From a virus: a stretch of DNA of 64,000 bases. Position numbers and translations under genes: made by a program. This document shows, one piece after another, positions 5,937-38,680 of the stretch. The notes beneath the pieces were generated by a model. The model was not told the DNA's origin. It saw nothing but the letters and a program-made list of their open reading frames with translations, and searched no databases. How positions within the stretch are numbered: position 1 is the stretch's first letter; every line of letters begins with the position of its first letter. The stretch spans positions 1 to 64,000 of the IMG/VR virus record IMGVR_UViG_3300008267_000007. One strand, given 5' to 3'.

Positions 5937-5937
5937 A

Positions 5938-10608: not shown

Positions 10609-10609
10609 T

Positions 10610-12617: not shown

Positions 12618-12907
12618 GTAAATTAAAACCTAGAATGGGCCAAATTGTCCTAAAACCTCTAGAAGAATCAGAAATGATGGTAGGTAATATTATTATCCCA
12701 GATGTTGGTAATGAAAAAACACTTACAGCTACAATTGTTGCAGTATCTGATGTTTACAACTATCATAGAGGTGAGTTAATACCTACAGATTTAGAAGTAG
12801 GTATGAAAGTTGTAGTACCACCAATGGGTGTACAAAAACATAAATTAAATAATGAAGAATATCTTATTACTTCACAAGAAAACATTTTATCAATTATTGA
12901 AGATTAA
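12614..12907 (+). CDS. groES: GroES-like co-chaperonin
   Basis: 97 aa, the usual GroES length. N-terminal KLKPRMGQIVLKPLEESE and the mobile-loop equivalent MMVGNIIIPD (21-30) end in the hydrophobic tripeptide III that docks on GroEL. VGMKVVVPPMGVQKHKLNNEEYLI gives the core barrel. In T4 the analogous gp31 helps fold the major capsid protein; here it is paired with its own GroEL two bases downstream, so the phage carries the full machine. Confidence 0.9.
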   Translation: MSKLKPRMGQIVLKPLEESEMMVGNIIIPDVGNEKTLTATIVAVSDVYNYHRGELIPTDLEVGMKVVVPPMGVQKHKLNNEEYLITSQENILSIIED

Positions 12908-12909
12908 TT

Positions 12910-16149: not shown

Positions 16150-16568
16150 GTGACTCAATAACTAAATTTGAAGATATGAATCCAAGAGAAGGAAAAGTTA
16201 CAATAGATGAACCTAGGTTTACATCCAAACCTAATACTATTTCACAATTAGAGAAAGAATACCCTATTATAGCTAATGAATTCAAAGCAATTCTAGAAGC
16301 CCAATATGAATTATTCTCCCAAAAAATGTTATCATATGGTATGTCTAACATATCTATGGGTTCTAATTTAGAAACTAAAGATGAAGTTAAATTTTCACTT
16401 ACCTCAATCTGGATCAGAATGAATGATAAGATGAATAGATTAAAAAATCTAGTATTACTAGGTAATAAAAATCCTTTAGATAATGAACCCACTATGGATT
16501 CATGGATTGATCTAACTAACTATGGTATTATAGCCCAAATAGTTAGCAAAGGTAAATGGAGAAAATAA
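16146..16568 (+). CDS. DUF1599 / nucleotide modification associated domain 1 protein
   Basis: 140 aa. SQKMLSYGMSNISMGSN (57-73), SLTSIWIRMNDKMNRLKNL (83-101) and the end WIDLTNYGIIAQIVSKGKW match DUF1599 (Nmad1) as I know it: Met/Arg/Lys-rich helices with NDK and RLKNLVL. The family was named for its link to base-modification enzymes in phages and bacteria; its reaction is not established. Here it sits between clamp-loader and nuclease genes and overlaps both. Confidence 0.8.
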   Translation: MSDSITKFEDMNPREGKVTIDEPRFTSKPNTISQLEKEYPIIANEFKAILEAQYELFSQKMLSYGMSNISMGSNLETKDEVKFSLTSIWIRMNDKMNRLKNLVLLGNKNPLDNEPTMDSWIDLTNYGIIAQIVSKGKWRK

Positions 16569-17548
16569 TGAAAGATACAACCCCTAAAATACTAAAAGAA
16601 ATAAAATCAGTAATAGTTCCCGAAGTACAATATGGGGTTCAAAAATCTGTATCTTATTCTCAATTTAATATATTCTCTACTTGTCCTCACCAGTGGGGTT
16701 TAAAGTATAGGGATGGTCATAAAGTCTATACACCTAGTATACACGCGGTATTTGGTACGGCATTACATACAACTATTCAACAGTATCTAACGTTATTCTA
16801 CAATGAAAGTGTAGCAGCGGCTGACAGATTAGATTTGAATTTCATACTTAAAGAATCGCTAAGAACTGAATATCTATCATCTAAAGAGAAAAACAATAAC
16901 ACTAATTTCAGTACCTCTTCAGAATTAAGTGAGTTTTATGAGGATGGGGTTAATATAATAAAATACATTAAAACCAAAAAGGCTAAATACTTTTCTAAAA
17001 GAGGATGGCATTTGGTTGGTGTAGAATTGCCATTAAATTTGCAACCTAATAATACGTTAGACAATGTTAGATTTATTGGGTTCTTAGATTTGGTTCTATA
17101 TCATGAAGATACAAATACTATTAAAATTGTAGATATAAAAACTTCTACTCGTGGTTGGGGAGATAAAGAAAAAAAAGATGAAATAAAACAATCTCAATTA
17201 ATTCTATATAAAAAATTATTTGCTGAACAATATAATTTCCCTGTAGATAATATTGAAATTGAATTTTTCATTACTCGTAGAAAAATATTTGAAGAAGGAG
17301 ATTTTCCTCAAAAACGTATTCAAGAATTCATACCAGCATCCGGTAAAGTTAAACTTAATAAAGCTGGGCAGTTATTAGATTCTTTCTTAAATAATGTGTT
17401 TAACACTGATGGGAGTTACAAACAAGTTGATCTTGAAAAACGACCAAGTAAGAATAATTGTAGGTTTTGCCCCTATAAAGATAATTCCGATTTATGTGAC
17501 CAAAATGAAAAACCTATAACAATTCCTTCATTTTTCCAATCTATGTAG
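16568..17548 (+). CDS. RecB-family PD-(D/E)XK exonuclease with Fe-S-type cysteines
   Basis: 326 aa from ATG 16568, which shares TAATG with the previous stop; ATG 16556 is an alternative. SYSQFNIFSTCPHQWGLKY near the N-terminus, GTALHTTIQ, then VRFIGFLDLVL and KIVDIKTST hold the acidic-Lys (D...DxK) active site, and a C-terminal CRFCPYKDNSDLC cluster with the early Cys would bind a 4Fe-4S group as in AddB/Cas4-type nucleases. Likely processes DNA ends in recombination-dependent replication or host DNA breakdown. Confidence 0.9.
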   Translation: MKDTTPKILKEIKSVIVPEVQYGVQKSVSYSQFNIFSTCPHQWGLKYRDGHKVYTPSIHAVFGTALHTTIQQYLTLFYNESVAAADRLDLNFILKESLRTEYLSSKEKNNNTNFSTSSELSEFYEDGVNIIKYIKTKKAKYFSKRGWHLVGVELPLNLQPNNTLDNVRFIGFLDLVLYHEDTNTIKIVDIKTSTRGWGDKEKKDEIKQSQLILYKKLFAEQYNFPVDNIEIEFFITRRKIFEEGDFPQKRIQEFIPASGKVKLNKAGQLLDSFLNNVFNTDGSYKQVDLEKRPSKNNCRFCPYKDNSDLCDQNEKPITIPSFFQSM

Positions 17549-17587: not shown

Positions 17588-17776
17588 ATGTCACAAAATC
17601 AACAACTAACAAGTGTAAAGGTAGATAAAGATATCTTCGAAGCATTTAAGATTACATCTATCAAAACTAAATTCTCATTACAAAAATTAGCAGACAGGTG
17701 TATGCATTTATACCTAACTGATCCTGAGTTTCAAAAATTAGTTCATAACCATATGAATTTAGAATTAGAAAAATAA
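17588..17776 (+). CDS. small hypothetical protein, ribbon-helix-helix-like
   Basis: 62 aa. A short strand (QLTSVKVDKDIFEAFKI) followed by two helices (SLQKLADRCMHLYLTD, EFQKLVHNHMNLEL) fits the ribbon-helix-helix fold of small DNA-binding regulators such as CopG/Arc, though no motif proves it. It stands directly before the glycan cassette, so it could regulate it. Confidence 0.65.
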   Translation: MSQNQQLTSVKVDKDIFEAFKITSIKTKFSLQKLADRCMHLYLTDPEFQKLVHNHMNLELEK

Positions 17777-17790: not shown

Positions 17791-19218
17791 ATGTTAAAAG
17801 AAAGTTATATACCTAAAGACCAAAGAAAGAAAATAATATTCATCTGTGATGATATTAGAATGCATTCTGGGGTAGCAACAATGGCCAGAGAAATAGTTTT
17901 AGGAACTTCCCATCATTATAATTGGGTAGTAGTAGGAGCAGCTATAAACCATCCAGAACATGGGCAAAGATTAGATCTATCTAGTGCCACTAATCAAGAA
18001 ACTGGCAATACTGATTCCTCTATTACACTTTATCCAAATAATGGATACGGTAATGCTGATTTAATTAGATCTTTAATCAAAACTGAAAAACCTGATGGGT
18101 TGTTCTTTTTTACAGATCCAAGATATTATGATTGGTTATTTGCTATAGAGAATGAGGTTAGAAAACAAATCCCAATGATTTATTTAAATATATGGGATGA
18201 TTTACCAGCGCCCCTATATAATAGAGCCTTCTATGAGTCTTGTGACGCATTATTAGCTATCTCCAAACAAACCAAAAATATTAATGAAATGGTTCTAGGT
18301 AAGAAAGCTAAGGATAAAATTATTACTTATGTTCCTCATGGAATAAATGAAAAACAATTCTTCCCAATTGATAATAAGGATTTATTAAAAGAAACTAAAA
18401 AGAAATTATTTGGTGATAAAGAATTTGATTTTGTATTATTCTTTAATTCAAGAAATATTAGGAGGAAATGTATTAGCGATTTATTAGCAGCCCACAAGAT
18501 ATTTTTAGATACCTTACCTAAAGAGAAAGCAGACAAGATTGCATTAGTACTCCACACTCAACCTATAGATAATAATGGTACTGATTTATATGCTGTGAGA
18601 GAATTACTATTTGGAAAAGACTCAAATGTTATATTCTCAGATAATAGAATAGATACATCCGAATTAAACCAAATATATAATCTTGCAGATGTAACTGTAT
18701 TACCTACTTCAAATGAAGGGTGGGGATTAGCTCTTACTGAAGCTATGATGGCAGGTAAGATGATTATTGCTAACGTAACAGGAGGTATGCAAGATCAAAT
18801 GAGATTCGAAGATGAAAATGGTAAATGGATTGATTTTACTACTGAATTTCCTTCTAATCATTTTGGTACTTATAAAAAACATGGTAAATGGGCTGTACCT
18901 GTATTCCCAAATAATATGTCATTAGTTGGTTCACCTACTACTCCTTACATTTGGGATGATAAATTAGATTTTAGAGAATTAGCTTTAGCAATTCAACAAG
19001 TTTATGAAATGTCTCCTGAAACTAGAAAAGAAAATGGATTAGCAGCTAGAGAATGGGTAACATCAGATGAATCAGGAATGTCAGCTCGAATGATGTGCAA
19101 CAATGTTATCAAAGATATTGATTTAACATTAGAAAAATTTAAACCTAGAAAAACTTTTGAATTTCTTAAGACAGGAGATTTGGATACCCTAGAATTAGTT
19201 CATAAATTAACGTATTAA
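17791..19218 (+). CDS. glycosyltransferase, GT-B fold (GT4 type)
   Basis: 475 aa. N-terminal FICDDIRMHSGVATMAREIV (17-36) is the Rossmann/sugar-acceptor start, and the C-terminal domain carries the GT4 donor site: YVPHGINEKQFFP, LPTSNEGWGLALTEAMMAG with the EGWGL(x)3EA pattern, then ANVTGGMQDQM. Retaining transferase of unknown sugar. First gene of a 13-kb cassette that continues in the same direction. Confidence 0.92.
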   Translation: MLKESYIPKDQRKKIIFICDDIRMHSGVATMAREIVLGTSHHYNWVVVGAAINHPEHGQRLDLSSATNQETGNTDSSITLYPNNGYGNADLIRSLIKTEKPDGLFFFTDPRYYDWLFAIENEVRKQIPMIYLNIWDDLPAPLYNRAFYESCDALLAISKQTKNINEMVLGKKAKDKIITYVPHGINEKQFFPIDNKDLLKETKKKLFGDKEFDFVLFFNSRNIRRKCISDLLAAHKIFLDTLPKEKADKIALVLHTQPIDNNGTDLYAVRELLFGKDSNVIFSDNRIDTSELNQIYNLADVTVLPTSNEGWGLALTEAMMAGKMIIANVTGGMQDQMRFEDENGKWIDFTTEFPSNHFGTYKKHGKWAVPVFPNNMSLVGSPTTPYIWDDKLDFRELALAIQQVYEMSPETRKENGLAAREWVTSDESGMSARMMCNNVIKDIDLTLEKFKPRKTFEFLKTGDLDTLELVHKLTY

Positions 19219-19227
19219 TAAGATAAA

Positions 19228-20529
19228 ATGAAAAATACATTTGTAATAAGCTGCCCAATTGACACTTACAGTGGATATGGTTCTCGTAGTAGAGATTTAG
19301 TTAAAGCGTTAATTAATTTGGACAAATATGACGTTAAAATATTACCTCAACGTTGGGGTAATACCCCACACAATTTTATAGAAGATCATAAAGAAGAATG
19401 GGGTTTCTTACAACCACATGTTGTAACTACTCAATTAACAGCACAACCTGATATTTGGGCTCAAATAACAGTTCCAAATGAATTTCAAGCTGTAGGTAAA
19501 TTTAATATAGGAATAACAGCTGGGATCGAAACTACAATCTGTGCTCCACAGTGGATTGAAGGGATGAATAGAATGAATTTAAATTTAGTATCATCTGAAC
19601 ATTCTAAAAAAGTATTCCAAGATTCTAAATTCCAAAAACAAGATGATAATACTAAACAAATAGTTGGTACAGTTGAGTTAACTGCTCCAATAGAAGTATT
19701 ATTTGAAGGAGTAGACATTACTAAATACTTTGCTTCTCCGTCACCCCCAGCTTCAGAGATAGGACAATCTCTAAATAAAATTGAGGAAGAATTTGCTTTC
19801 CTATTTGTTGGTCATTGGCTTCAAGGTGATTTTGGTCAGGATAGAAAAGATGTAGGAGGATTAATTCGTGTGTTTTTAGAAACATTTAAAAACAAACAAA
19901 AGAAACCAGCTTTAGTATTAAAAACAATGGCTGGACCTGCTAGTATTGTAGACAGGGACCAAATATTGAAGAAAATAGATGCTATCAAAGGATCTATTAA
20001 TTCTAAAAATTTACCTAACATTTACTTACTTCACGGTGAGGTGTCAGATGATGAGATGAATCAGTTGTATAACCATTCTAAGATCAAAGCTATGATTAGT
20101 TTAACTAAGGGTGAAGGGTTTGGTAGACCATTATTAGAATTTACTCAAGTTAAAAAACCTGTAATCGCTCCTAATTGGAGTGGTCAGATAGATTTCTTGA
20201 ATCATGAATTTGCATCACTAATCCCTGGAAATCTAACACCAATACACCCATCAGCTCAAGTACCTGATATGCTTATTGAAGGTTCACAGTGGTTCACAGC
20301 TGATTATGGATTTGTAAGTGGTTTATTAAAAGATTATTTTGATAATTATAAGAAATATCAAGAAAATGGTAAACGATTAGGTTTTTATTGTAAAACTAAT
20401 TTTTCATTTGAAAAAATGCAAGATAAGTTGGATTCAATACTATCTTCAAAAGTACCTGAAATACCTAAACAAGTTCAATTAAAGTTACCTCAACTTAAAA
20501 AAATTGAATTACCTAAATTAAAAAAATAG
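19228..20529 (+). CDS. glycosyltransferase, GT-B fold (GT4 type)
   Basis: 433 aa. Begins CPIDTYSGYGSRSRDLVKAL (9-28), with a Gly-rich loop as in GT4 N-terminal domains; C-terminal SLTKGEGFGRPLLEFTQVKKP (near 296-316) is the nucleotide-sugar site (ExGFGxxxxE). The last 20 residues are a Lys/Leu/Pro repeat (KLPQLKKIELPKLKK). Follows the 17791 gene by 9 bases. Confidence 0.92.
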   Translation: MKNTFVISCPIDTYSGYGSRSRDLVKALINLDKYDVKILPQRWGNTPHNFIEDHKEEWGFLQPHVVTTQLTAQPDIWAQITVPNEFQAVGKFNIGITAGIETTICAPQWIEGMNRMNLNLVSSEHSKKVFQDSKFQKQDDNTKQIVGTVELTAPIEVLFEGVDITKYFASPSPPASEIGQSLNKIEEEFAFLFVGHWLQGDFGQDRKDVGGLIRVFLETFKNKQKKPALVLKTMAGPASIVDRDQILKKIDAIKGSINSKNLPNIYLLHGEVSDDEMNQLYNHSKIKAMISLTKGEGFGRPLLEFTQVKKPVIAPNWSGQIDFLNHEFASLIPGNLTPIHPSAQVPDMLIEGSQWFTADYGFVSGLLKDYFDNYKKYQENGKRLGFYCKTNFSFEKMQDKLDSILSSKVPEIPKQVQLKLPQLKKIELPKLKK

Positions 20530-20533
20530 AATA

Positions 20534-21055
20534 ATGAGTAGGTGGATAGAATTATCATATATTGAGGATGTAAAAACCCTTACAAAGTATGGTTTGAATG
20601 AGTATTACAATAAAGCTAATCAAGGATTATTTGAATTTATAAATCCTTCTTTATCCTATGATTATGAAGAGGTTAATATGTCTGATGGTCAAAAGATGTG
20701 GAAGGTTGAAAAGCAAAACAATGATCCTCAATTTTTAATTACTTTAAAAAATGATGAGTCTTTAGATGAAAATTGGAAAGTTTTTGATTTTTATTTTTTT
20801 GAGACAGGTTTTGATAAACAATCAGGTTTAGAAGGTAAACATTATTTGGATACTTTAAGTAAAGTAATAAAAGATAATATAATTCCATATTTTTCATCTT
20901 TTCCTGAATTAGTTCTTTATTTTAATCCCTATAATGGGGATGGGGGGGGAGAAACTAGAAAAAAGGTATTTGAAAGGATGATTAATAAATTTATGGATAA
21001 AAATAAATTTGATATAGAAATTGATGGTGAAGAATTTATAATAAAAAAAAAATAG
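20534..21055 (+). CDS. hypothetical protein in glycan cassette
   Basis: 173 aa, acidic, aromatic-rich, C-terminus GEEFIIKKK. A Gly run near residue 137 (DGGGET) and a YFSSFPELVLYF stretch are the only distinctive parts. No transferase motif recognised; membership of the cassette is by position only. Confidence 0.7.
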   Translation: MSRWIELSYIEDVKTLTKYGLNEYYNKANQGLFEFINPSLSYDYEEVNMSDGQKMWKVEKQNNDPQFLITLKNDESLDENWKVFDFYFFETGFDKQSGLEGKHYLDTLSKVIKDNIIPYFSSFPELVLYFNPYNGDGGGETRKKVFERMINKFMDKNKFDIEIDGEEFIIKKK

Positions 21056-21061
21056 AATAAA

Positions 21062-21517
21062 ATGAAAGATAAATTAAGTATTTGTCCTCGTTGTGGGAGT
21101 GACGCTTGTTATGTAACGCCCGTAAATGAGGCTAAAAATAATTATTATTGCTTTGGATGTGGTTTTCAAACTAACGATTTAATGGTAGAAGGAGAATTCG
21201 ACTTTGAATCATATGAAGAAACACTACCTGAACTCTACAAAGACATTAAATCAGTAGATGATAAAAAACGTGTTTGGTACCCAATAACTATCAACATTCA
21301 GGATAAAGGAACGGTATTTGCTAATGGTACTTACAAAGATAATTGGCAATGGAGTGGAATATTAGCAATTGAAGTGAGCGATGATGAGAAGGGTAAATTC
21401 AAAATACCTGGAACTGAGGAATTTTATACTCATAAAACTGATATTAAAACATTAAAAAGCTTCCCTCAAAATGATTTTATAGAAGCATTGGATTATATTA
21501 ATTTCTTCACAGAATAG
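21062..21517 (+). CDS. hypothetical protein with N-terminal zinc ribbon
   Basis: 151 aa. ICPRCGSDACY ... YYCFGCGF (residues 6-36) gives two CxxC knuckles as in a zinc ribbon. The rest is beta-rich (VWYPITINIQDKGTVFANG, FKIPG). It may bind nucleic acid or serve as a structural protein; function unknown. It precedes the GT2 gene by one base. Confidence 0.75.
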   Translation: MKDKLSICPRCGSDACYVTPVNEAKNNYYCFGCGFQTNDLMVEGEFDFESYEETLPELYKDIKSVDDKKRVWYPITINIQDKGTVFANGTYKDNWQWSGILAIEVSDDEKGKFKIPGTEEFYTHKTDIKTLKSFPQNDFIEALDYINFFTE

Positions 21518-21518
21518 T

Positions 21519-22136
21519 ATGAAAATAAGTTATGCCATAACGGTTTGTAACGAATTAGAGGAGATCAAGAAACTAATTGATTTCCTCTTAGTTTACAAAC
21601 AAGATGAAGATGAGATAGTTGTACTACTAGACGACTCAAAAGGTAAAGGAGAGGTCTACGATTACTTGTTAACTACCTCACCCGAAGTAACTTGTTATAG
21701 GGACAGGTTTGAAGGACACTTTGCTGATTGGAAGAACAAACTAACATCATACTGTACTGGAGATTATATAGTAAACATTGATGCAGATGAGATTCCTAAC
21801 AATCAGCTAGTACTAAATCTCCCTTCAATATTAGAATACAACCCTGAAATAGATGTATACTGTGTACCTAGAGTAAATACTGTAGAAGGATTGACATCTA
21901 AGCATATTGCTAAATGGGGATGGAGAGTAGATGAAAAAGGTTGGGTTAACTGGCCAGATTATCAAATGAGAGTTTATAAGAATAGTCCTGAGATAAAATG
22001 GAAAAATAAAGTGCATGAAGTGTTGGAAGGCTACAAAATAATAACTACCTTACCTACTGAAGAAGAATATGCATTGTATCATCCAAAGACAATTGAGAGG
22101 CAAGAAAAGCAAAACAACTACTACGATACATTATGA
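21519..22136 (+). CDS. glycosyltransferase family 2-like
   Basis: 205 aa, GT-A fold. SYAITVCNELEEIKKLIDFL at the N-terminus and the metal-binding DxD in YIVNIDADEIPNN (near 86-98) define the GT2 core; WPDYQMRVYKN and WKNKVHEVL match the acceptor-side segments of this subgroup. It overlaps the next gene by 4 bases. Confidence 0.9.
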   Translation: MKISYAITVCNELEEIKKLIDFLLVYKQDEDEIVVLLDDSKGKGEVYDYLLTTSPEVTCYRDRFEGHFADWKNKLTSYCTGDYIVNIDADEIPNNQLVLNLPSILEYNPEIDVYCVPRVNTVEGLTSKHIAKWGWRVDEKGWVNWPDYQMRVYKNSPEIKWKNKVHEVLEGYKIITTLPTEEEYALYHPKTIERQEKQNNYYDTL

Positions 22137-23491
22137 TAAAATTTATAATATTTGATTTGGATGGAGTTTTAGTAGAAGCTAAAAATATTCATTTTGAAGC
22201 ATTAAATGAGGCTTTAGGGCCTAAATATGAGATATCCTGGAATGAACATTTAAGTAGATATGATGGTTTAAAAACTAATCAGAAACTTGAAATGTTAACT
22301 CAAGATAAAGGACTGCCTGTAGAGTTATATAAACAAGTTTGGGATGAAAAGCAACGATTAACATTACAAAAATTAAAGAGTTTAAAACCTGATACTCAAT
22401 TAATGGTTTGTATGGATCTATTAGTACAGCAAGGTTATAAATTAGCAGTGTGTTCAAATAGCATACGTAAAACTGTACTAACAGTATTATCTAAACTAAA
22501 TATAATTGAAAATTTTGATTTAATATTATCCAATGAAGATGTAAAAAATAGCAAACCTCACCCTGAAATATACTGGAAAGCTATATCACAAATGGGATTT
22601 TTACCTGAAGAAACTTTAATAGTTGAAGATTCACCCTATGGGTTATTAGCCGCTTCTCGTAGTAAATCCCATGTGATGAGAGTTGGATCCCCAAAAGACA
22701 TTTCGTATAATAACATCTATAAATACTTAAATCCAGAAAAAATGAATTTAATACCTAAATGGAACGATGATAAATTAAATGTTTTAATTCCTATGGCTGG
22801 GGCAGGTTCAAGATTTGAGCAAGCAGGTTATACATTTCCTAAACCTCTTATTGAGGTGAAAGGAAAACCTATGATTCAAGTTGTAGTTGAAAATCTAAAT
22901 TTAGAAGCTAACTACATTTATGTAGTACAAAAAGCTCATAGGCAAAAGTATAATTTAGATACATTGCTAAACCTAATTACACCTGGATGTAAAATTGTAG
23001 AGACTGATGGGTTAACCGAAGGAGCAGCATGTACTGCTTTATTAGCTAAAGAATTTATAGATAATGATTCACCTTTATTCTTTGCCAACTCAGATCAGTT
23101 TGTAGAATGGGATTCAAATGAATTTATGTATAAGATGAATGAAACTAATGCTGATGGTGGTATTGTTTCATTTACTGCTACACACCCTAAATGGTCATTT
23201 GCTAAAATTAATGAAGAGGGGTTAGTAACCAAAGTAGCTGAGAAAAACCCAATATCAAATATTGCAACAGTAGGTTATTACTATTGGAAAAATGGATCTG
23301 ACTTTGTTAAATATGCTGAGCAAATGATTGACAAGAATATCAGGGTTAATAATGAATTTTATGTATGCCCTGTATTTAATCAAGCAATTGAAGATCATAA
23401 ACAAATTAGAACATTTAACACAGCAGGGATGTGGGGTTTAGGAACACCAGAAGACTTAAATTATTATCTAGAACATTATAAAAACCAATAG
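22133..23491 (+). CDS. fusion: HAD phosphatase + sugar-phosphate nucleotidyltransferase
   Basis: 452 aa with two domains. Residues 1-200: HAD hydrolase, IIFDLDGVLVEAK (5-17), CSNS (107-110), KNSKPHPE (138-145), IVEDSPYG (163-170), of the beta-phosphoglucomutase group. Residues 214-452: nucleotidyltransferase, LNVLIPMAGAGSRFEQAG (215-232) with the signature GxGxR, KPLIEVKGKPMIQ, a FANSDQF metal site and EKNPISNI. It would make an NDP-activated donor from a phosphorylated sugar or similar, with the HAD part removing or moving phosphate. A phosphoramidate-type or unusual sugar donor is possible; substrate unknown. Confidence 0.9.
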   Translation: MIKFIIFDLDGVLVEAKNIHFEALNEALGPKYEISWNEHLSRYDGLKTNQKLEMLTQDKGLPVELYKQVWDEKQRLTLQKLKSLKPDTQLMVCMDLLVQQGYKLAVCSNSIRKTVLTVLSKLNIIENFDLILSNEDVKNSKPHPEIYWKAISQMGFLPEETLIVEDSPYGLLAASRSKSHVMRVGSPKDISYNNIYKYLNPEKMNLIPKWNDDKLNVLIPMAGAGSRFEQAGYTFPKPLIEVKGKPMIQVVVENLNLEANYIYVVQKAHRQKYNLDTLLNLITPGCKIVETDGLTEGAACTALLAKEFIDNDSPLFFANSDQFVEWDSNEFMYKMNETNADGGIVSFTATHPKWSFAKINEEGLVTKVAEKNPISNIATVGYYYWKNGSDFVKYAEQMIDKNIRVNNEFYVCPVFNQAIEDHKQIRTFNTAGMWGLGTPEDLNYYLEHYKNQ

Positions 23492-23492
23492 T

Positions 23493-24062
23493 ATGGCCCA
23501 TAAAGAACAAATAGATTATGTTAATAGAATAAAAAAATTATTCCCAAATTATTTTACCGGTCAAAAGGTATTAGGTATAGGAACTTTTAATGTTTGTGGG
23601 ACAGAAGATGAATACTTCACTAATTGTGATTATTCTGGATTAGATCTAGGCCCGGGACCCGGAGTAGATATAGTATGTCCTGCTCAAGAGTATGATGCTC
23701 CTGATAATACCTTTGATGTAATTATATCATGTGAATGTTTTGAACATAACCCATTTTATAAAGAAACTATCCAAAATTCCTATAGAATGCTTAAGCCTGG
23801 AGGGATGTTTATTTTTACTTGTGCCACTACCGGGAGACCAATTCATGGTGTAGCATCTTTAGAACAAGAGAGTAAAGAAAAGTGGGAAAATTGGAAAACT
23901 ATGCCTAATGTTTCAAGAGAAAATTGGGATAATGAATATTATAAAAATCTTACTGAAGAAGATATTAGAGAGTGTATTAATATAGATGAGGTTTTTTCTT
24001 CTTATGAATTTGAAGTTGAAACCAACCATTATGATCTATATTTTTGGGGAATTAAAAAGTAA
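23493..24062 (+). CDS. SAM-dependent methyltransferase (class I)
   Basis: 189 aa. QKVLGIGTFNVCG (24-36) is motif I, YSGLDLGPGPGVDIV (49-63) motif II, and FDVIISCECFEHNP with ESCECFEH then RMLKPGGMFIFTC (98-110) match methyltransferase family 11. Likely methylates a sugar or a base; the substrate is not visible. One base after the fusion gene. Confidence 0.9.
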   Translation: MAHKEQIDYVNRIKKLFPNYFTGQKVLGIGTFNVCGTEDEYFTNCDYSGLDLGPGPGVDIVCPAQEYDAPDNTFDVIISCECFEHNPFYKETIQNSYRMLKPGGMFIFTCATTGRPIHGVASLEQESKEKWENWKTMPNVSRENWDNEYYKNLTEEDIRECINIDEVFSSYEFEVETNHYDLYFWGIKK

Positions 24063-24065
24063 TAT

Positions 24066-24701
24066 ATGATATCAGTTATTATACCTACTTTATGGAAACC
24101 TAAGGGTTTTTTAGAGAGACTTGAAGAAATTTCAAAAAATTCATTTGTTGGAGAGATTATTTTAATTGATAATTCTACTTTAAATATAGATACATCTCAT
24201 ATTTCTAAAATAAATCATATTAAAGAAAATCAAAATACTTACGTTATCCCAGCATGGAATAAAGGAGTAAAATTAGCTAAATATGATAAATTATTAATAG
24301 TTAATGATGATGTAGAAACTGATTGGGGAGTTATAGATACTGTATACCCCCATATTACTGAAGATAAGGGTCTTATAGGAGCTGGAGTTAGTTGTTGGAA
24401 ACCCGATAATAAAATAGGAGATATTTCTCCTGTACAGTATATGCCTAATTGTTATGCTTGTTTTTTCTTCATTCATAAAAACTCTTACATTGAAATCCCA
24501 GAGATGAGAATTCATTTTGGAGATAATTGGATGTTTGATAGTATAAGACTCCAAGGTAAACCTAATTATGAAATACTAAACTGGAGTATGGGGGGAGAAT
24601 CAGAACAAACTAGTGGTTTAGAAGAATTTAATACTATTAAACATCAAGATTTAATTATATATCACAAATTAGCTCAAATTCAGTATGGAAATAACAAATA
24701 A
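24066..24701 (+). CDS. glycosyltransferase family 2-like
   Basis: 211 aa. Begins ISVIIPTLWKPKGFLERLEE (2-21) with a GT-A start, WNKGVKLAKYDKLLIVNDDVETDW gives the DD-type metal site, and HFGDNWMFDSIRLQG a conserved catalytic-side His/Trp region. It overlaps the next gene by 17 bases. Confidence 0.88.
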   Translation: MISVIIPTLWKPKGFLERLEEISKNSFVGEIILIDNSTLNIDTSHISKINHIKENQNTYVIPAWNKGVKLAKYDKLLIVNDDVETDWGVIDTVYPHITEDKGLIGAGVSCWKPDNKIGDISPVQYMPNCYACFFFIHKNSYIEIPEMRIHFGDNWMFDSIRLQGKPNYEILNWSMGGESEQTSGLEEFNTIKHQDLIIYHKLAQIQYGNNK

Positions 24702-25479
24702 GTGGGTAGTGTACTGTGCTGGTAACTCAGAATATATTTTATCGAAAAATCAAGAACCTATTCTCATGTTAAAATCTTTCCAAAGACATTTTGGGGATGA
24801 ACTAGATTATGTATATTTTACTGACATAAATGAAAGTAGAATAGATGAAATTGAAAAGGTTTGTGTTAATAATGGGATTAAATTAGTAAAGGGAAATTGT
24901 AAAGTTAATTACGATCAATATTCTGATATACAGTATACCCAAACTGGTTTAAATGGGCGATGGCCTGATGCCATGTATTGGTATTGTGATGCCCCTGAAT
25001 ATCTAGAGGGTTTATATGATTTTGCTATTAAGTGTGATGGAGATATGTTATGCAATACTAAATTTGATTTAACAGAGTTAGAAAGCCATTTACCCATATC
25101 TATAGCAGAGGCACCGGATTGGTATATTCCCTTTGATAAACATTCACCGAATGCTGGGTTTCAAATATTAAATTTAAAAGAATATGAAGATTCTAAAATC
25201 AACCTACTATTTCGAGAAGCAGCTAAACAAACGGCAACATTCAATAGTGACACTCCAGCCTTAGATTATTTTATAGGTTCAAATCAAATTTGGGCTAAAC
25301 GTCTAAGCTCAGAATATAATTATCTATTATTTGATGTAGATGAAGTTAACAATCTAAAACTCGAAGAAGTTTCAAATGTAAAAATATTTCATTTTGTAGG
25401 TAGTAAACCTTATAACTTAGATCCCAAAATGGAAGGATCTATAAAAGAATATTTTTCTAAAATTTATTTAAATGGATAG
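24685..25479 (+). CDS. glycosyltransferase, GT8-like
   Basis: 264 aa. CAGNSEYILSKNQEPILMLKS near the start, KCDGDMLCNTKFDL (near 114-127) as the DxD metal site, PNAGFQILNLKEYE (154-167) and IFHFVGSKPYNLD (234-246), the last matching the GT8 H-x-x-G-x-x-K-P ending. Retaining transferase of unknown donor. Confidence 0.85.
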   Translation: MEITNKWVVYCAGNSEYILSKNQEPILMLKSFQRHFGDELDYVYFTDINESRIDEIEKVCVNNGIKLVKGNCKVNYDQYSDIQYTQTGLNGRWPDAMYWYCDAPEYLEGLYDFAIKCDGDMLCNTKFDLTELESHLPISIAEAPDWYIPFDKHSPNAGFQILNLKEYEDSKINLLFREAAKQTATFNSDTPALDYFIGSNQIWAKRLSSEYNYLLFDVDEVNNLKLEEVSNVKIFHFVGSKPYNLDPKMEGSIKEYFSKIYLNG

Positions 25480-26080
25480 AATAGAATTAATTAATTATTA
25501 TCTTTCAAAGAAAGATTCTAAAAAATACCTTGAAATAGGAGTATACAAGGGGCATAGCTACAACCATGTAGAAGCAAATATCAAAGATTCAGTAGATCCC
25601 GATGTAACAACACCGGCTGTATATCATTTAACATCTGATGACTTCTTTGAAAATGTAGCACCTACCTTAGACTATAAGTATAATGTAGTTTTTATTGATG
25701 GATTACATCATAGTGAACAAGTTAATAAAGATATTAAAAACTCTTTAAATTTTTTAGAGGAGGATGGTGTAATAGTATTACATGATTGTAACCCACAAAG
25801 TGAAATGAGACAAAGAGTGCCTGCAGATTTTGATATATGGGAATATGGCTGGAATGGAGATGTTTGGAAATCCATAGTGGATTTTAGAAAGAATAATTCT
25901 CACTTAAAGTATAACGTGTTTGTTATAAATGATGATGAGGGGTTAGGAATAATAAAATCAGGAATTGGAAAAGAATTGAAATTAAAAATACCTAAAGAGT
26001 TAGATTATGATTTTCTAGAAAAATATAGAATTGATTTACTGAATTTAATAACTTCTAAACAGTTTTATTTAAATGAATAG
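25472..26080 (+). CDS. SAM-dependent methyltransferase (family 24-like)
   Basis: 202 aa. YLEIGVYKGHSYNHVEA (19-35) is the SAM motif, YNVVFIDGLHHSEQVNKDI (69-87) holds the metal/His region, and GVIVLHDCNPQSE (102-114) the core ending, as in methyltransferase family 24. Overlaps both neighbours by 8 bases. Likely tailors a sugar in the cassette product. Confidence 0.88.
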   Translation: MDRIELINYYLSKKDSKKYLEIGVYKGHSYNHVEANIKDSVDPDVTTPAVYHLTSDDFFENVAPTLDYKYNVVFIDGLHHSEQVNKDIKNSLNFLEEDGVIVLHDCNPQSEMRQRVPADFDIWEYGWNGDVWKSIVDFRKNNSHLKYNVFVINDDEGLGIIKSGIGKELKLKIPKELDYDFLEKYRIDLLNLITSKQFYLNE

Positions 26081-26933
26081 TTGTATATTTACTACTCATG
26101 CTACTCTAAATTTGGAGCATGCTAATTATAGTTTGAAGTCCCTATTGGGGCTTCAAAATTGTGATATAATATGGGATAATTTTGTAATCTATAATACCCA
26201 TGAACATGAACTTCCTAATGAAGACCTAATATCTCTAATCCAGAAATATGATACTAAGAATTATATAAAAGAAATTTTAATTTTTCCTTATGACCCTGAT
26301 AGTAACAAGAAAAATCTACTTCAAGATATAAGAAATTGGTATGACATTTCACTTTCATTAGGGTGCCAAAATACTAAAGGTAAAACATTGTGGTTAAAAT
26401 CAGACTATTGTGTATCTAATAATTTTAACGAGATATTTTTAGAAAATAATCTTAACAATTGTATGTGGTCTCTGCCTACATTAGGGGCTAAACAAAAAAT
26501 TAGTTATGATACCATATTAACAAAACTTAATTTACCTGAGTTCACTCCATCAGATTTTGAAACGTATTATAGGGGAGGAGATAATCCTCATAATACTTTA
26601 CCTAATGAAGAAGTATCACCTAATGGGGAAATGGATTATCACCCATCTATAAATTATGTTTCTCACAATTATGTTCATGATTTTAATTTGCATGTTGTGT
26701 CTAATGATACTTTAGAATTAGGTAGAGAATTAGCCTATCACCCACAAGTATTTGACATGAATTCAACTTGGGGTGGGCCTCATAATTTATTCTATGGTTT
26801 AAAACAAAATGGAGTTTATTTTAATGGTGAATATAGAGCTTATGGTATTCATATGTTCCATGAAATAATTTCTGAAAATAGGTTGGAAGACCGAGGAGAT
26901 GATCGTAAATTACATATAGGAGAAAAATATTAA
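26073..26933 (+). CDS. glycosyltransferase-like protein
   Basis: 286 aa. GT-A-like: early ATLNLEHANYSLKSLLGLQN, ESE-free but with KTLWLKSDYCVS (near 109-120) where the metal site of GT-A proteins lies, and EMDYHPSINYVSHNYVHDFN later. No exact family match; assigned from fold-like pattern and location. Confidence 0.6.
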   Translation: MNSCIFTTHATLNLEHANYSLKSLLGLQNCDIIWDNFVIYNTHEHELPNEDLISLIQKYDTKNYIKEILIFPYDPDSNKKNLLQDIRNWYDISLSLGCQNTKGKTLWLKSDYCVSNNFNEIFLENNLNNCMWSLPTLGAKQKISYDTILTKLNLPEFTPSDFETYYRGGDNPHNTLPNEEVSPNGEMDYHPSINYVSHNYVHDFNLHVVSNDTLELGRELAYHPQVFDMNSTWGGPHNLFYGLKQNGVYFNGEYRAYGIHMFHEIISENRLEDRGDDRKLHIGEKY

Positions 26934-26936
26934 ATT

Positions 26937-27383
26937 ATGATATTAATTTCACATAGAGGGAATATTAATGGTAAAAATACTGAAAGAGAAAATCACCCTG
27001 ACTATATTGATGAAGCTATAGCTTTGGGTTATGATGTAGAGATTGATATTTGGGTAGTTGATTCAGATATAATGCTAGGTCATGATGAACCTCAGTATAA
27101 AGTAACAAGTAAATGGTTAGAACAAAGACTTCATAAACTATGGATACATTGTAAGAATACACCTGCTTTAGAATACGCCAACTATTTTCATGATAGAGAA
27201 GACCTAACTTACTTTTGGCATGAGAATGATATAGCTACACTAACAAGTAAAGGTGATATATGGGTATACCCTGGTAAACAACCTATTGAAAATAGTATTG
27301 CAGTGATGCCTGAAATTTGTAATGACGATGTTACACATTGTAAGGGGGTATGTAGTGATTATATAGAAAACTATAAGAAATGA
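26937..27383 (+). CDS. glycerophosphodiester phosphodiesterase / PI-PLC-like protein
   Basis: 148 aa. ISHRGNINGKNTERENHPDY (3-22) with His-Arg, VEIDIWVVDSDIMLGHDEP (35-53) with the catalytic Glu-Asp and His, and LWIHCKN (72-78) match the N-terminal half of the GDPD/PI-PLC barrel. It is about half the usual 250 aa, so probably a reduced form. Such proteins occur in polysaccharide clusters and may add or remove a glycerophosphate. Confidence 0.75.
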   Translation: MILISHRGNINGKNTERENHPDYIDEAIALGYDVEIDIWVVDSDIMLGHDEPQYKVTSKWLEQRLHKLWIHCKNTPALEYANYFHDREDLTYFWHENDIATLTSKGDIWVYPGKQPIENSIAVMPEICNDDVTHCKGVCSDYIENYKK

Positions 27384-28093
27384 AAATAGCAATTTGCATA
27401 AGTGGTCAGCCCAGAAATTTTAAACATGGTTATGAAAGTTTAAAAACTCATTTTTTAGACAAGTATGATTGTGATATTTACTTCCATACTTGGAAAACTG
27501 ATAGTTTTGAATCAACTAATTTCGGGTTTGGTAATCATCAATATAATTTTGATAGAGATGATTATTATAGTTTAAATTTTATATATCAACCTAAAAATCA
27601 TATTTTAGAAAGTCCTATAACATTTGATGCTAGTGATTATAAATGTCCAATTTGGAGACAACCCCTAAATAATACATTAAGTATGTTTTATTCTACATAC
27701 AAGTCATTTCAACTAATTGAAGGTGATTATGATTATGTTGTTAGAACTAGATTTGATGTAGATTATTCTAAATTTAATTTGGAATTTCCAAAAGAAGGTA
27801 TTATATTACCTGAATGGAATACAGATAGTAGAGTCAAATCCAGAGGTTATTATGATGTGTTTGCCTTGGGCAAACCCGAAGATATGAAAGTATACTCACA
27901 AGTATTTTCAAATGTTATATCATATGTAACTAATGATGAAAATTTCCTTAACTTCCTAACAGGAGGCTGGCCAGGACAAGATTCACCATTACGAAATGAA
28001 TATTTGTTGAAATGGCATCTATTAAAAAATAACATTAAAGTAAAAGAACTACCAACATTAGAAACAAAAGCTGATGTTGGTCTAATAAGATAA
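27380..28093 (+). CDS. glycosyltransferase-like protein (polysaccharide type)
   Basis: 237 aa. MKIAICISGQPRNFKHGYES and CDIYFHTWKTD, then DYDYVVRTRFDVDYSKF (near 116-132) with a DxD-like site. I recall this pattern from proteins of capsule and phage glycan clusters. Its ATG overlaps the stop of the GDPD-like gene (ATGA). Confidence 0.75.
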   Translation: MKIAICISGQPRNFKHGYESLKTHFLDKYDCDIYFHTWKTDSFESTNFGFGNHQYNFDRDDYYSLNFIYQPKNHILESPITFDASDYKCPIWRQPLNNTLSMFYSTYKSFQLIEGDYDYVVRTRFDVDYSKFNLEFPKEGIILPEWNTDSRVKSRGYYDVFALGKPEDMKVYSQVFSNVISYVTNDENFLNFLTGGWPGQDSPLRNEYLLKWHLLKNNIKVKELPTLETKADVGLIR

Positions 28094-28094
28094 T

Positions 28095-29009
28095 ATGAAA
28101 GGAGTTATAACAATATTTGCATTACCTCAAGAATTAGAAGACTTAGCATTAACCCTATATAATCTAAAACGTAATTCAATTTACCTAGACCCCCAAAATG
28201 AGTATTTAGTAGATATAACAATGTGTCTATCAGATGAGTTAACAGATTGGGATAAATCTAAATTGCCAAAAGACTATATTGAACAACGAACTATTGAGTT
28301 ATGTAATAAGTTTTTAGATTGGTGTAAATATGATTTGAATATCGAAAAAGAAGATCGTATATTAGGATGTGTTTCACAAAGGAGATATAGTTTAGGTAAA
28401 CATGAAGATGCTGATTTCTTTATTTGGTTAGATTGTGATTTTATATTTAAAGATATTACATTACAATACATGACATATGCTTATGAAAATCTAAAATTAA
28501 CAGGAGTAGAGGATTTTATTATAACACCTCAATTTGTTAGACAATGGGATGCATCATGGGATATATTAGTTAATGAAAAATTTATAAATCATCCTCTATA
28601 TTACCATGAATCAGCAGATGTTTATATTGATACTCTTCCCCAAAATGATGAAATACAAATTAAACATATTAATGATATTAAATTTGCAGGAGGTTGGTTC
28701 ACATTAATATCAGGCAAATTATTAAGAGAAATAACCATTCCTGAATCTTTAGGCCATTATGGCTTAGAGGATAATTTTGTTATAGAATGTTCTAAAATAT
28801 TAAAACAAAGAGGTATAGGTGTGTCTCAATTTGTATTAGAGGGGCTTGTTATAGGTGAGAGTTATACCCATCGTCCAAATGGAACTATTAAAAACTTTAT
28901 TGCAAGTAGAAATCGAAAATTAGAATTTACTCAAATAGCTCAAAATAATTTTCCAATTGAATTAAATAAATTTTATGAAAGAAGTAACAGTAGTACTAAC
29001 AGCTTGTAA
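28095..29009 (+). CDS. glycosyltransferase-like protein
   Basis: 304 aa. DADFFIWLDCDFIFKD (near 109-124) is a DxD-type metal site; AGGWFTLISGKLLREI and GLEDNFVIECSKIL give the acceptor-side Gly/Glu-Asp motif seen in GT-A enzymes. The first 100 residues are unique. It overlaps the next gene by 35 bases in another frame. Confidence 0.7.
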   Translation: MKGVITIFALPQELEDLALTLYNLKRNSIYLDPQNEYLVDITMCLSDELTDWDKSKLPKDYIEQRTIELCNKFLDWCKYDLNIEKEDRILGCVSQRRYSLGKHEDADFFIWLDCDFIFKDITLQYMTYAYENLKLTGVEDFIITPQFVRQWDASWDILVNEKFINHPLYYHESADVYIDTLPQNDEIQIKHINDIKFAGGWFTLISGKLLREITIPESLGHYGLEDNFVIECSKILKQRGIGVSQFVLEGLVIGESYTHRPNGTIKNFIASRNRKLEFTQIAQNNFPIELNKFYERSNSSTNSL

Positions 29010-29664
29010 TAGAGCAGATTTATTAGAAAAAACTTTAGATAGTTTTTTTCAAATGAACACTTACCCAATTAAGCGTTTCATTATTATAGACGATGGAATG
29101 AATTTTGGTTGTAATGATTTTGTTAAGTCCCAATATGATTTCCCTATAGAACTTATATATAATGACCCTAAATTATTTCAAATTAGATCAATCGATGCTG
29201 CTTATTCATTGGTTGACACTGATTATGTATTTCATATGGAAGAAGATTGGTTATTCTTAAAACCAGGATTTATTGAAGACTCAATGTCAGTATTAGAAGA
29301 GGATCCTAACATATTACAAGTATGGTTAAGAGGAATTGATGATACAACCTTACCTCATCCTTGGCATCCTGACATGTATGAAGTCAATGGAAAGCAATTA
29401 GTTATGAATCAACAAGTTGGAATGTGGGGAGGAATAAGCTTCAATCCTGGACTAAATAGATTAAGTGATTGGAAATCATTTCCTGAGGGATATAATGGAT
29501 GTGAAAGAATAACACCAGCTGAATTAAGTGGTGGAGTAACTTTGGAATGCGATGTATCAATTGAATATATGAAACGAGGTAGAATAACTATGAGATTTCT
29601 TGAATCCTATATAGAACACATAGGGTGGGATAGACACATAGTTGATGGGGTTAATGGTAAATAA
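28975..29664 (+). CDS. glycosyltransferase family 2-like
   Basis: 229 aa. VTVVLTACNRADLLEKTLDSF (4-24), RFIIIDDGMN (34-43), and VFHMEEDWLFLKPGF (near 85-99) are the GT2 nucleotide and metal motifs. The start overlaps the 3' end of the previous gene; ATG 28975 is the first in-frame start before the GT2 core. Confidence 0.85.
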   Translation: MKEVTVVLTACNRADLLEKTLDSFFQMNTYPIKRFIIIDDGMNFGCNDFVKSQYDFPIELIYNDPKLFQIRSIDAAYSLVDTDYVFHMEEDWLFLKPGFIEDSMSVLEEDPNILQVWLRGIDDTTLPHPWHPDMYEVNGKQLVMNQQVGMWGGISFNPGLNRLSDWKSFPEGYNGCERITPAELSGGVTLECDVSIEYMKRGRITMRFLESYIEHIGWDRHIVDGVNGK

Positions 29665-29674
29665 AAAATAAAAC

Positions 29675-30853
29675 ATGTATAAAACATCTGACATATCAAT
29701 TGTAATACCTAGTTACAATAACCTAGAATACCTAAAATCAGTTTACAAATCAGTTAGAGAAATATCTAAAGATATTGAATTAATTCTATATGATGATAAT
29801 AGTGATGATGGTACTAGAGAATGGCTTTTAGGATTAGAAAAAGAAGAAAATGACATAATTGAAACTTTTGATAAAAAGGTTGGTCATCCCGTTCTATATG
29901 ATGTAGGGTTTAATTTAACTGAGAGAAAAATTATAGGTATACTTCATGCTGACATGATTGTCCATAAAGATTTCTTTACAAACATACTGAAACACATTAA
30001 TCGCAATACTGTAGTATGTGGGACTTGTGCCGAACCCCCAATCCACCCACCAGGAAATGAGAAGTATATCTTGGATGCTGGTTTTTATCCTAATGAGTTT
30101 AATCAATCTACTTTTAATAATTTTTATGAAACTTTAAATAAGGGGGAAACTAATAATGGTATATTTGCTCCTTGGTTTTTATTGAAAGAAGATTATATTA
30201 GAATTATAGGGAAGCATGATACTTCATTTTTTTATTGTGAAGATGTTGATATGTTTAATAGAATGGTAATAGTAGGGTTTAATATAATACAAAGTAGAGA
30301 TGCATTAGTGTATCATTTTACACAGCGTGGTCATAAGTTCGAAAAGGGTGTTATAGGAAAAGTACAACATGATTACCAAGATAGAGTCAATAAAGACACC
30401 AGAAATTATATAAGAAAGTGGGGTAGCATGTATAAATTCGATGTAAACCATCGTCCAATACCTTCACCTAAATATAATATAGCATTTGTAATTAAAAATT
30501 GTAATTACAACATATTAGAGACATTAGAACCATGGTGTGACAGAATCTATATAGAAGATGAAATGCAAGTATTAACTTCCCATTACATTGAAAAAGAGCA
30601 ACCTAACACCAGCTTTGACTTAACAAAACGTGTAATGACAATTGAATACAACGACCCAATAGGGGAGAATGATATAGTTGTAGAATTTAACTACTTACAA
30701 CTCACTCCTGAGTCATGGGGCATGCTTCAACAATTACCTAATATAATAAAAGATAATGGAGAGGTAGGAGAATTTGAATTAGACATATTCAAAATAACTA
30801 TTAACTCAATGGTTGAAAGTCAAAATGATTTAATAACTTTACCAACTAATTAA
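29675..30853 (+). CDS. glycosyltransferase family 2 with C-terminal extension
   Basis: 392 aa. N-terminal GT2 domain: ISIVIPSYNNLEYLKSVYKS (7-26), LILYDDNSDDGTREWL, GILHADMIVHKDF (near 88-100) as DxD-like metal site, and FFYCEDVDMFNRM (184-196) with the catalytic ED. Residues 260-392 form an unassigned domain beginning KYNIAFVIKNCNYNILET. Last gene of the cassette; a TATTTATA box follows. Confidence 0.9.
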   Translation: MYKTSDISIVIPSYNNLEYLKSVYKSVREISKDIELILYDDNSDDGTREWLLGLEKEENDIIETFDKKVGHPVLYDVGFNLTERKIIGILHADMIVHKDFFTNILKHINRNTVVCGTCAEPPIHPPGNEKYILDAGFYPNEFNQSTFNNFYETLNKGETNNGIFAPWFLLKEDYIRIIGKHDTSFFYCEDVDMFNRMVIVGFNIIQSRDALVYHFTQRGHKFEKGVIGKVQHDYQDRVNKDTRNYIRKWGSMYKFDVNHRPIPSPKYNIAFVIKNCNYNILETLEPWCDRIYIEDEMQVLTSHYIEKEQPNTSFDLTKRVMTIEYNDPIGENDIVVEFNYLQLTPESWGMLQQLPNIIKDNGEVGEFELDIFKITINSMVESQNDLITLPTN

Positions 30854-30875: not shown

Positions 30876-31295
30876 ATGGGATTCAAATTACGTGATTTCT
30901 TCTTAAATGAAGAATTTCTTAACGAAGAAGGTGAATTAAATTATAATGCCACTTACGGAGGTGAAAACTTTAAAGTTGTGGTTGATGTAAATAAAAATCC
31001 AACTAAAAAAGGTATTAAAGTTAAATTCTTTCCTATTAATGAAGCAGGACAAGTGTTAACCAATTTATCACCTGAAGAAGTAGATACACTACAAAATAGC
31101 ATTGCAACTACCGTGTCTAAGAAATTTGCTGAATTTGGTCTAGAATTTGACCGTGATACTGATGCACCAGATAAAGGAGCAGCTAACTTTCAAATACCAC
31201 TAGACTCAGTATTTACATTTATTAGAGATAAAATATTAGGTGGAGGTGAAGAAAAATCAACAACAGGTTCTGAAGATGAAGAAGCAGTCGCCTAA
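30876..31295 (+). CDS. hypothetical protein with capsid-targeting-like N-terminus
   Basis: 139 aa. The N-terminus MGFKLRDFFLNEEFLNEE has the alternation of a hydrophobic helix and LxE that T4 head protease (gp21) cuts in its internal proteins; the 32061 and 33178 proteins begin with a similar NLKQFLAEGKLLKE. The body is beta-rich and acidic (GENFKVVVDVNKNP; AANFQIPLDSVF). I infer, without proof, an internal head protein. Confidence 0.65.
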   Translation: MGFKLRDFFLNEEFLNEEGELNYNATYGGENFKVVVDVNKNPTKKGIKVKFFPINEAGQVLTNLSPEEVDTLQNSIATTVSKKFAEFGLEFDRDTDAPDKGAANFQIPLDSVFTFIRDKILGGGEEKSTTGSEDEEAVA

Positions 31296-31602
31296 CATAG
31301 TATTTTTAGAGTATAGTTTAAGGGGTATTATGGACACCATTTTTACCCCTAAAATACAACATCTACTGTTTGAAACAGTTGTGGAAGGGATAAAATTAGC
31401 CCTTAGGAGTAATAAAAAGGAATTTACTATTTGTAGTATAAATCACCTTGAAGTGAATATAACTATACCAAAGGCTGGTTTTGTCTCTGCTTTAAAATCA
31501 GCATTAGACCATTTTATTAAAACTGAAGATTATCTAAAGTGTTCTCAAATTAATGAATTAATCCAAGAAGCAAATGGACAAAGAACTACAAAACAATCTT
31601 GA
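31276..31602 (+). CDS. hypothetical protein
   Basis: 108 aa from ATG 31276 (MKKQSPNIVFLEYSL...), overlapping the previous stop by 20 bases; the GTG at 31240 is less likely. The C-terminus FIKTEDYLKCSQINELI is related to YYESIEDYEQCSKVNNLL of the 34394 protein, so the two probably share a helical domain. Function unknown. Confidence 0.7.
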   Translation: MKKQSPNIVFLEYSLRGIMDTIFTPKIQHLLFETVVEGIKLALRSNKKEFTICSINHLEVNITIPKAGFVSALKSALDHFIKTEDYLKCSQINELIQEANGQRTTKQS

Positions 31603-32002
31603 AGAAGGCTTTGAAAAGTTATTTAATACTCCTGTTATATTAAAAAAACAAAGACAGAATAAAGCATTAAAGAAGAAAGCCTTATTTATATCTCTAATAG
31701 AGCAGTATGAAACTTCAATAATCAAATCTGCTAGATTACAAGCCGAATTTGGTATTGATTTATTTGAATACGAAGAAGCATTTTATAGCATTATAGACAA
31801 ATTGATGGTATTAATGTGGGGTGAAAGTGGATATGATTTAATTGCTTTCTATTTACATGAAAGAATAGCATTAGATGGTTCAATTAATCATTTATTTCAA
31901 ATGAACGAGGATGGAACTGAATCTGAAGTTGAATTAAACACACCAGAAGATCTTTATAGCTACTTAATAAAAATAAATCCAAATTTTTTAAACGAAAAAT
32001 AA
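31574..32002 (+). CDS. hypothetical protein
   Basis: 142 aa. Basic patch KKQRQNKALKKKALF near 24-38, then amphipathic helices (ALFISLIEQYETSIIKSAR) and an acidic end. The start overlaps the previous gene by 29 bases. No function recognised. Confidence 0.65.
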   Translation: MDKELQNNLEEGFEKLFNTPVILKKQRQNKALKKKALFISLIEQYETSIIKSARLQAEFGIDLFEYEEAFYSIIDKLMVLMWGESGYDLIAFYLHERIALDGSINHLFQMNEDGTESEVELNTPEDLYSYLIKINPNFLNEK

Positions 32003-32417: not shown

Positions 32418-32475
32418 ATACAAACTAATTTGGCTCCCGTAGGGAGCCTTATTACATTTCAATAAAAAATTATGG
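32418..32475 (+). repeat. 58-bp perfect direct repeat, copy 1 (includes a terminator)
   Basis: Identical to 33555-33612. It covers the 3' flank of the CTS-like gene, the GGCTCCC hairpin, and the first bases of the next gene, so the whole unit was duplicated. Confidence 0.9.
32432..32448 (+). terminator. intrinsic terminator
   Basis: GGCTCCCGTAGGGAGCC, 7-bp stem with a 3-base loop, followed by TTATTACATTT. Repeated at 33569-33585. Confidence 0.75.
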
Positions 32476-35252: not shown

Positions 35253-35284
35253 TTTGGTGTGTTCCTTGGATTTACATATATTTA
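35253..35284 (+). promoter_or_regulatory. promoter, TTTG-N20-TATATTTA
   Basis: TTTG 35253-35256 and TATATTTA 35277-35284 with exactly 20 bases between, just before the homing endonuclease gene. Confidence 0.7.
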
Positions 35285-35289
35285 TTATC

Positions 35290-38481: not shown

Positions 38482-38482
38482 A

Positions 38483-38677: not shown

Positions 38678-38680
38678 GAT

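Follow-up and report, generated by a model that had tools for sequence, protein, structure and literature searches.

Large aquatic phages commonly carry glycosyltransferase (GT) genes, and the molecule that these enzymes decorate is rarely known. The stretch of DNA analysed here (the window), which comprises bases 1 to 64,000 of the incomplete, 111,094-bp virus record IMGVR_UViG_3300008267_000007, raises the question of what a phage builds with a large set of such genes and on which acceptor. At 17791-30853, the window contains a cassette of 16 open reading frames (ORF), all on the + strand and with gaps of -35 to +10 nt, the summed length of which equals 100% of the interval. A first-pass annotation, made from this one sequence, had described a large, one-directional and tightly packed set of glycan-building genes, and this description holds, with all ORFs at the coordinates given. 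We find that the cassette is one locus with conserved edges and an exchangeable interior, and that it is not the result of chance, since scores of phage contigs have it. This design of a conserved core and a swap block is our main point, and it is not visible in one sequence.

In a protein comparison, window proteins matched those of Flavobacterium phage immuto (vB_FspM_immuto; genus Immutovirus; 160 kb), which was cultured on Flavobacterium sp. LMO8, along the genome, with identities of 59% for the terminase, 59% for the major capsid protein, 61% for the portal-like gp20 and 85% for PhoH. These genome-wide matches indicate that the window phage is T4-like and that its host probably belongs to the Flavobacteriia.

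A fixed locus with conserved edges and an exchangeable interior

The left border consists of a gene for a PD-(D/E)XK exonuclease (16556-17548; PF12705, E=6e-21), the position of which is conserved, also in cyanophage Mel-JY01, and a gene for a conserved 62-residue protein (17588-17776), which is ribbon-helix-helix-like by eye and has no Pfam match; these and all other locus genes described below are on the + strand. The core genes follow, i.e. GT1 (17791-19218), encoding a GT4-type (GT-B) glycosyltransferase (PF00534, E=1.7e-11), GT2 (19228-20529), encoding a second GT4-type enzyme (PF00534, E=1.2e-8) that is 46% identical in Mel-JY01, and Znr (21062-21517), encoding a four-cysteine Zn-ribbon-like protein. 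GT3 (21519-22136), encoding a GT2-type (GT-A) enzyme (PF00535, E=2.6e-11), forms the left edge of the exchanged block. The right edge is usually GTlast (29675-30853; GT2-type; PF00535, E=6.6e-18), the allele of which is exchanged. The right border comprises two genes for conserved small proteins, one (30876-31295) in the same place in most complete cassettes and one (31574-32002) with a conserved position, and a gene for an HNH/NUMOD endonuclease (32472-33119; phrog_14736, E=3e-10), which occupies this place in 13 of 14 cassettes.

In Znr, C8, C11, C30 and C33 are invariant across 13 sequences. Its AlphaFold model is confident (pLDDT 94.7), yet no fold in the PDB matched it at E<=0.001; Znr has one uncharacterised viral homolog, A0A6J5M9U7. 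Znr and a 173-residue ORF with no assigned function (20534-21055), which is optional and was found in one other locus only, L016, are the two non-GT ORFs of the cassette that were absent from the first-pass annotation.

The immuto cassette (MW353175, 49172-59988) lies between the same exonuclease and the same small genes with the HNH endonuclease. GT1, GT2, Znr, GT3 and GTlast of immuto are 61.5%, 60%, 46%, 60% and 51% identical to their window counterparts, while all genes between GT3 and GTlast differ from those in the window and include aminotransferases, an epimerase and a methyltransferase. The immuto cassette has been annotated gene by gene; a description of the immuto-type locus was not found in the literature searched, a search that left most subscription papers outside.

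A scan of viral contigs with GT1 gave at least 597 confirmed stretches. In 85 loci, many of which are on contigs that end inside the locus, we counted GT2 in 79, the exonuclease in 77, the 62-residue protein in 80, Znr in 67 and GT3 in 58. Fourteen cassettes (window and immuto included) and two more could be traced to the right border. The left arm (exonuclease, 62-residue protein, GT1, GT2, Znr, GT3) is the same in all of them and the right arm of small proteins and HNH endonuclease is so with few exceptions, and GT1 and the right border lie ~9.5-25 kb apart. Moreover, GT1 and Znr were present in 8/8 examined records of >=132 kb, i.e. immuto and seven contigs, three of which (G003, G005 and G019) had been found via the cassette and the rest of the records via the major capsid protein or as a public genome. 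GT1 was not seen in two immuto-like records of smaller size (103 and 111 kb), which may be fragments. A contig filed under a Woesearchaeota metagenome-assembled genome (L120; PBPJ01000021.1) carries the exonuclease, the 62-residue protein, GT1, GT2, Znr and GT3 in this order and is most likely a misbinned phage contig.

Between close relatives, the gene content of the interior is exchanged. Among pairs of loci in which GT1 is 80-90% identical, 69% of the upstream genes are shared compared to 22% of the interior genes; for pairs in which GT1 is 90-100% identical, the values are 73% and 21%, the pairs being phylogenetically non-independent. At the DNA level, identity between the window and the relatives L010 and G012 is ~70-80% up to ~22.1 kb (22.0 kb for G012), is then lost, and returns at 30.5-30.9 kb. 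GT3 is nearly always present and occurs as divergent alleles, with 49-72% identity compared to 75-93% for neighbouring genes. Exchange can also be partial: the 173-kb contig G019, the GT1 of which is 84% identical to that of the window, retains the HAD-nucleotidyltransferase fusion (95%) and the ORFs starting at 26073 (87%), 27380 (89%), 28095 (84%) and 28975 (79%), and carries other genes where the window has 23493-26080. The interiors of relatives encode DegT aminotransferases, GDP-mannose-dehydratase-like proteins and other epimerases, RmlC, mannose-phosphate isomerase and a GT10 fucosyltransferase-like enzyme.

Five relatives (L006, L010, L015, L072 and G019) carry ORFs with weak GIY-YIG/NUMOD signatures, probably homing endonucleases, between GT1 and GT2; these ORFs and the HNH gene of the right border could promote block exchange. 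In L107, genes for a thiamine pyrophosphate enzyme, an acetaldehyde-dehydrogenase-like and a DmpG aldolase-like protein (DmpF/DmpG-like) lie in a row (7543-11173) in a cassette that also encodes a C-methyltransferase; this set possibly serves a branched-chain sugar.

Parts of the locus extend to other phages. Microcystis phage Mel-JY01 has the order exonuclease, GT1, GT2, GT3 and, further on, a GTlast-like gene, an additional gene following the exonuclease, and Rhodothermus phage RM378 has GT1- and GT3-like genes. The HAD phosphatase-nucleotidyltransferase fusion (22133-23491; PF13419 and PF00483), with a predicted role in activated-sugar synthesis, is 59-60% identical in Synechococcus phages S-PRM1 and S-CAM9. 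There, it adjoins a relative (45%) of the short GDPD-like protein at 26937-27383 (phrog_34507, E=4e-34), which often accompanies the fusion, as well as relatives (24-30%) of the protein at 27380-28093, in compact GT/epimerase clusters without GT1. This set resembles a sub-module that moves between phages and serves to make and transfer a single activated compound.

Candidate acceptors of the glycan

The first-pass annotation had proposed phage DNA, virion proteins or host surface sugars as acceptors; these are the right candidates, and from the gene comparisons virion decoration fits best. We give an even chance to a scheme in which cytosolic enzymes synthesize a virion glycan, the core of which is conserved and the outer sugars of which differ between strains, similarly to the glycans of chlorovirus capsids. 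In the cytosol of the host, GT1, GT2 and then GT3, with Znr, would assemble the conserved core glycan directly on an acceptor that the phage encodes; one or several virion proteins, from the capsid or the tail, are the most likely acceptors. GT1 possibly initiates the chain, and the genes conserved in the cassette are probably those that start it. The swap block, from GT3 to the right border, would make activated sugars by means of the nucleotidyltransferase and, in relatives, dehydratases, aminotransferases, isomerases and methyltransferases, and its enzymes would add the strain-specific outer sugars. The block would be swapped by homologous recombination in the flanking conserved DNA, so that related phages differ in their sugar coats, and the benefit might be masking from recognition by hosts or competitors, or adhesion. 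The broader proposal is tentative, and we hold it at somewhat short of even: these phages would be a family with true glycan serotypes, in which a dedicated locus, exchanged in blocks between phages of different bacteria, makes a complex, strain-specific virion sugar coat on a conserved core with the assistance of Znr, as a counterpart of the autonomous glycosylation of chloroviruses and giant viruses.

The distribution of the core argues for a phage-encoded acceptor: phages that infect Bacteroidota share it with a cyanobacterial phage and, thus, the core is not tied to one host surface. In a crude hydropathy scan of 692 cassette proteins, transmembrane-like segments were detected in three, with at most two per protein, and the window cassette has none; a flippase-, polymerase- or initiating-transferase-like membrane protein was not seen among the 692. 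Because such segments are near absent, we consider export of a lipid-linked polysaccharide of the Wzx/Wzy type unlikely.

Alternatively, the cytosolic enzymes could remodel the host surface, i.e. alter precursors of host lipopolysaccharide (LPS) or O-glycans, thereby changing receptors and excluding other phages. T4-like cyanophages and pelagimyophages have variable islands with GT genes, hypervariable and GT-rich in the latter, that have been read as host-surface modification (PMC7029224), and the sugar pathways in relatives of the window cassette resemble O-antigen loci. Here, the scarcity of membrane proteins, including those for export, counts against this alternative; on the other side, GTs of the LPS-core type require no transmembrane segments. 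Also against it, the core GTs are found in phages with Bacteroidota hosts as well as in one with a cyanobacterial host, and the surface glycans of these hosts should differ; in addition, 10-25 kb would be costly for a brief lytic infection. Altogether, we regard remodelling of the host surface as unlikely.

If the glycan were built on a modified phage base and protected against restriction or CRISPR, the variation of the cassette would reflect an arms race with enzymes that detect sugars on DNA. T4 and RB69, among other phages, have GTs that add sugars to hydroxymethylated bases (PMC6024577), the locus is near DNA-metabolism genes, and its core includes a Zn-ribbon protein. Among the eight records of >=132 kb, four (immuto, G013, G016 and G019) encode DpdA and two (G005 and G014) a short ThyA relative. 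The ThyA relative of G005 aligns with T4 dCMP hydroxymethylase across the Asp-containing GFxND segment; that of G014 has the GFxND motif, and an adjoining ORF reads like a dCMP deaminase. The remaining two records (G003 and G015) have neither DpdA nor a hydroxymethylase-like gene. Because the same GT1/Znr core occurs with DpdA, with a hydroxymethylase-like gene or with neither, a modified base is disfavoured as the common acceptor. In the window phage, a hydroxymethyl-base route was considered and rejected since the ThyA homolog keeps the PFNIAS motif and is, by this motif, an ordinary thymidylate synthase. The search for a dCMP/dUMP hydroxymethylase gave only this thymidylate synthase in the incomplete 111-kb record, and complete immuto has a single ThyA-family gene; DpdA had no match in the incomplete 111-kb record, although QueD, QueE and FolE are present. 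In addition, many-residue glycans on each base would burden packaging unless they were sparse. We consider DNA glycosylation quite unlikely.

The cassette could also be a hot spot in which independent glycosylation activities, acting on DNA, virion and host, are parked rather than one pathway, and the occurrence in cyanophage clusters without GT1 of the set with the HAD-nucleotidyltransferase, the GDPD-like protein and the relatives of 27380 suggests that sub-modules travel separately. This is very unlikely given the tight packing on one strand, the fixed borders and the presence of the core in all near-full-length relatives examined.

Several observations weigh against decoration of the virion. 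A search for acceptors gave Ser/Thr-rich stretches in predicted tail and structural proteins, which is unspecific, and no acceptor was identified. The locus sits among DNA-metabolism genes and not among structural genes, and peripheral GTs of the cytosol need no membrane segments to act on lipid-linked precursors of the host. The best solved relative of GT1 is chlorovirus B736L (3OY2, E=3e-13); this match reflects a remote GT4 relationship and is no proof of a shared function. Moreover, the acceptor of B736L itself is not known (PMC9614988).

With a fixed locus, a conserved core, a swappable periphery and an abundant group that has a cultured member in immuto, the question of the acceptor is directly testable. 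A virion acceptor would mean that phages have serotypes, which would bear on the way they recognise hosts and compete, and on their ecology. The cassettes are, in addition, a reservoir of enzymes for making rare sugars.

Comparison with known glycosylation systems

GT-bearing variable phage islands and the glycosylation of phage virions are already known. In chlorovirus capsid glycans, the core is conserved and the outer residues differ from virus to virus (PMC9614988, PMC7826918), and the gene pattern described here fits such an arrangement, which for our phages is a prediction from genes. As in chloroviruses PBCV-1 and NY-2A, in which capsid glycosylation involves virus-encoded cytosolic GTs and methyltransferases, the window cassette encodes soluble GTs and sugar-modifying enzymes, and GT1 is the remote relative of B736L. 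By contrast, chloroviruses are eukaryotic viruses, their genes are partly scattered, and their acceptor, Vp54, has been shown, whereas here a virion acceptor is a proposal.

The host-recognition cluster of pelagimyophages and cyanomyophages is also a variable island with GTs and sugar enzymes in T4-like phages, and the HAD-nucleotidyltransferase fusion is ~60% identical in cyanophages. However, that cluster contains tail fibres and lies between VrlC and gp14, whereas the window locus is a pure glycan locus beside an exonuclease with conserved flanking GTs; no tail-fibre genes were found among the annotated cassette families. In mycobacteriophages, phage GTs are reported to decorate capsid and tail-tube subunits (Freeman 2023, cited in PMC12619734), and the gene sets in the examples seen are smaller, with two putative GTs in Maravista. 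Bacterial capsule and O-antigen serotype loci share with the phage locus conserved flanks and an exchangeable interior of GTs and sugar-nucleotide enzymes; the phage locus differs in that no flippase or polymerase was seen, the core GTs are conserved and it resides in a phage.

The swap block of the window and the genome surroundings

At least nine GTs of the GT4, GT2 and GT8 types had been proposed from the first reading of the cassette. Seven are supported, six by Pfam and one by fold: two are GT4-type (PF00534) and four GT2-type (PF00535), and nothing matched a GT8 family. In addition to GT1, GT2, GT3 and GTlast, GT2-type enzymes are encoded at 24066-24701 (PF00535, E=9.5e-6) and 28975-29664 (PF00535, E=3.6e-11). 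The GT-A-like protein at 28095-29009 has a GT-A/nucleotidyltransferase-like fold by Foldseek (E~1e-5, prob 1.00 to TarS, K4CP and others), the model being weak with a mean pLDDT of 59. Three further proteins that are GT-like by eye are unproven, and a profile-profile comparison of all three for GT identity was negative. The one at 24685-25479 has no family match and no relative among the compared loci, the one at 26073-26933 has no family match and is 85-87% identical in L008 and G019, and the one at 27380-28093 matches phrog_13607 (E=1e-24), a family of unassigned function, and is the protein with the distant relatives in cyanophage clusters.

Pfam confirmed both of the predicted methyltransferases, an S-adenosylmethionine-dependent enzyme at 23493-24062 (PF13489/PF08241) and a Methyltransf_24 protein at 25472-26080 (PF13578, E=4.9e-12), as well as the HAD and NTP_transferase parts of the fusion at 22133. 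An NCBIfam scan for the sugar made by this fusion gave mostly sub-cutoff matches, none of which names a sugar. The GDPD-like protein at 26937 retains the HRG...ExD...H residues by eye, in line with its first description, and had no match in Pfam or NCBIfam and only one to a PHROG of unknown function.

Scans for Bacteroidota-type and sigma-70 promoters gave results at or below chance. Outside the locus, the window encodes a family B DNA polymerase (8615-10345), whereas the corresponding region of immuto (37898-40231) encodes a polymerase of family A; this difference fits the swapping of DNA polymerases that has been published for Caudoviricetes (PMC11348598). QueD, QueE, FolE and a phosphoribosyltransferase, i.e. 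genes of the 7-deazaguanine route, lie at 4513-7081, with QueE 91% identical to that of immuto. The thymidylate synthase (2754-3929) has 391 residues, with insertions compared to the bacterial enzymes, and the immuto version has 423. An ORF with a TTG start (1902-2732) strongly matches the ABC-transporter membrane region model PF13748 (E=2e-21), which is odd in a phage. Finally, GroES and GroEL are phage-encoded at 12614-14547, as they are in immuto, and an ORF at 35254-35856 with a weak GIY-YIG or NUMOD signature probably encodes a homing endonuclease.

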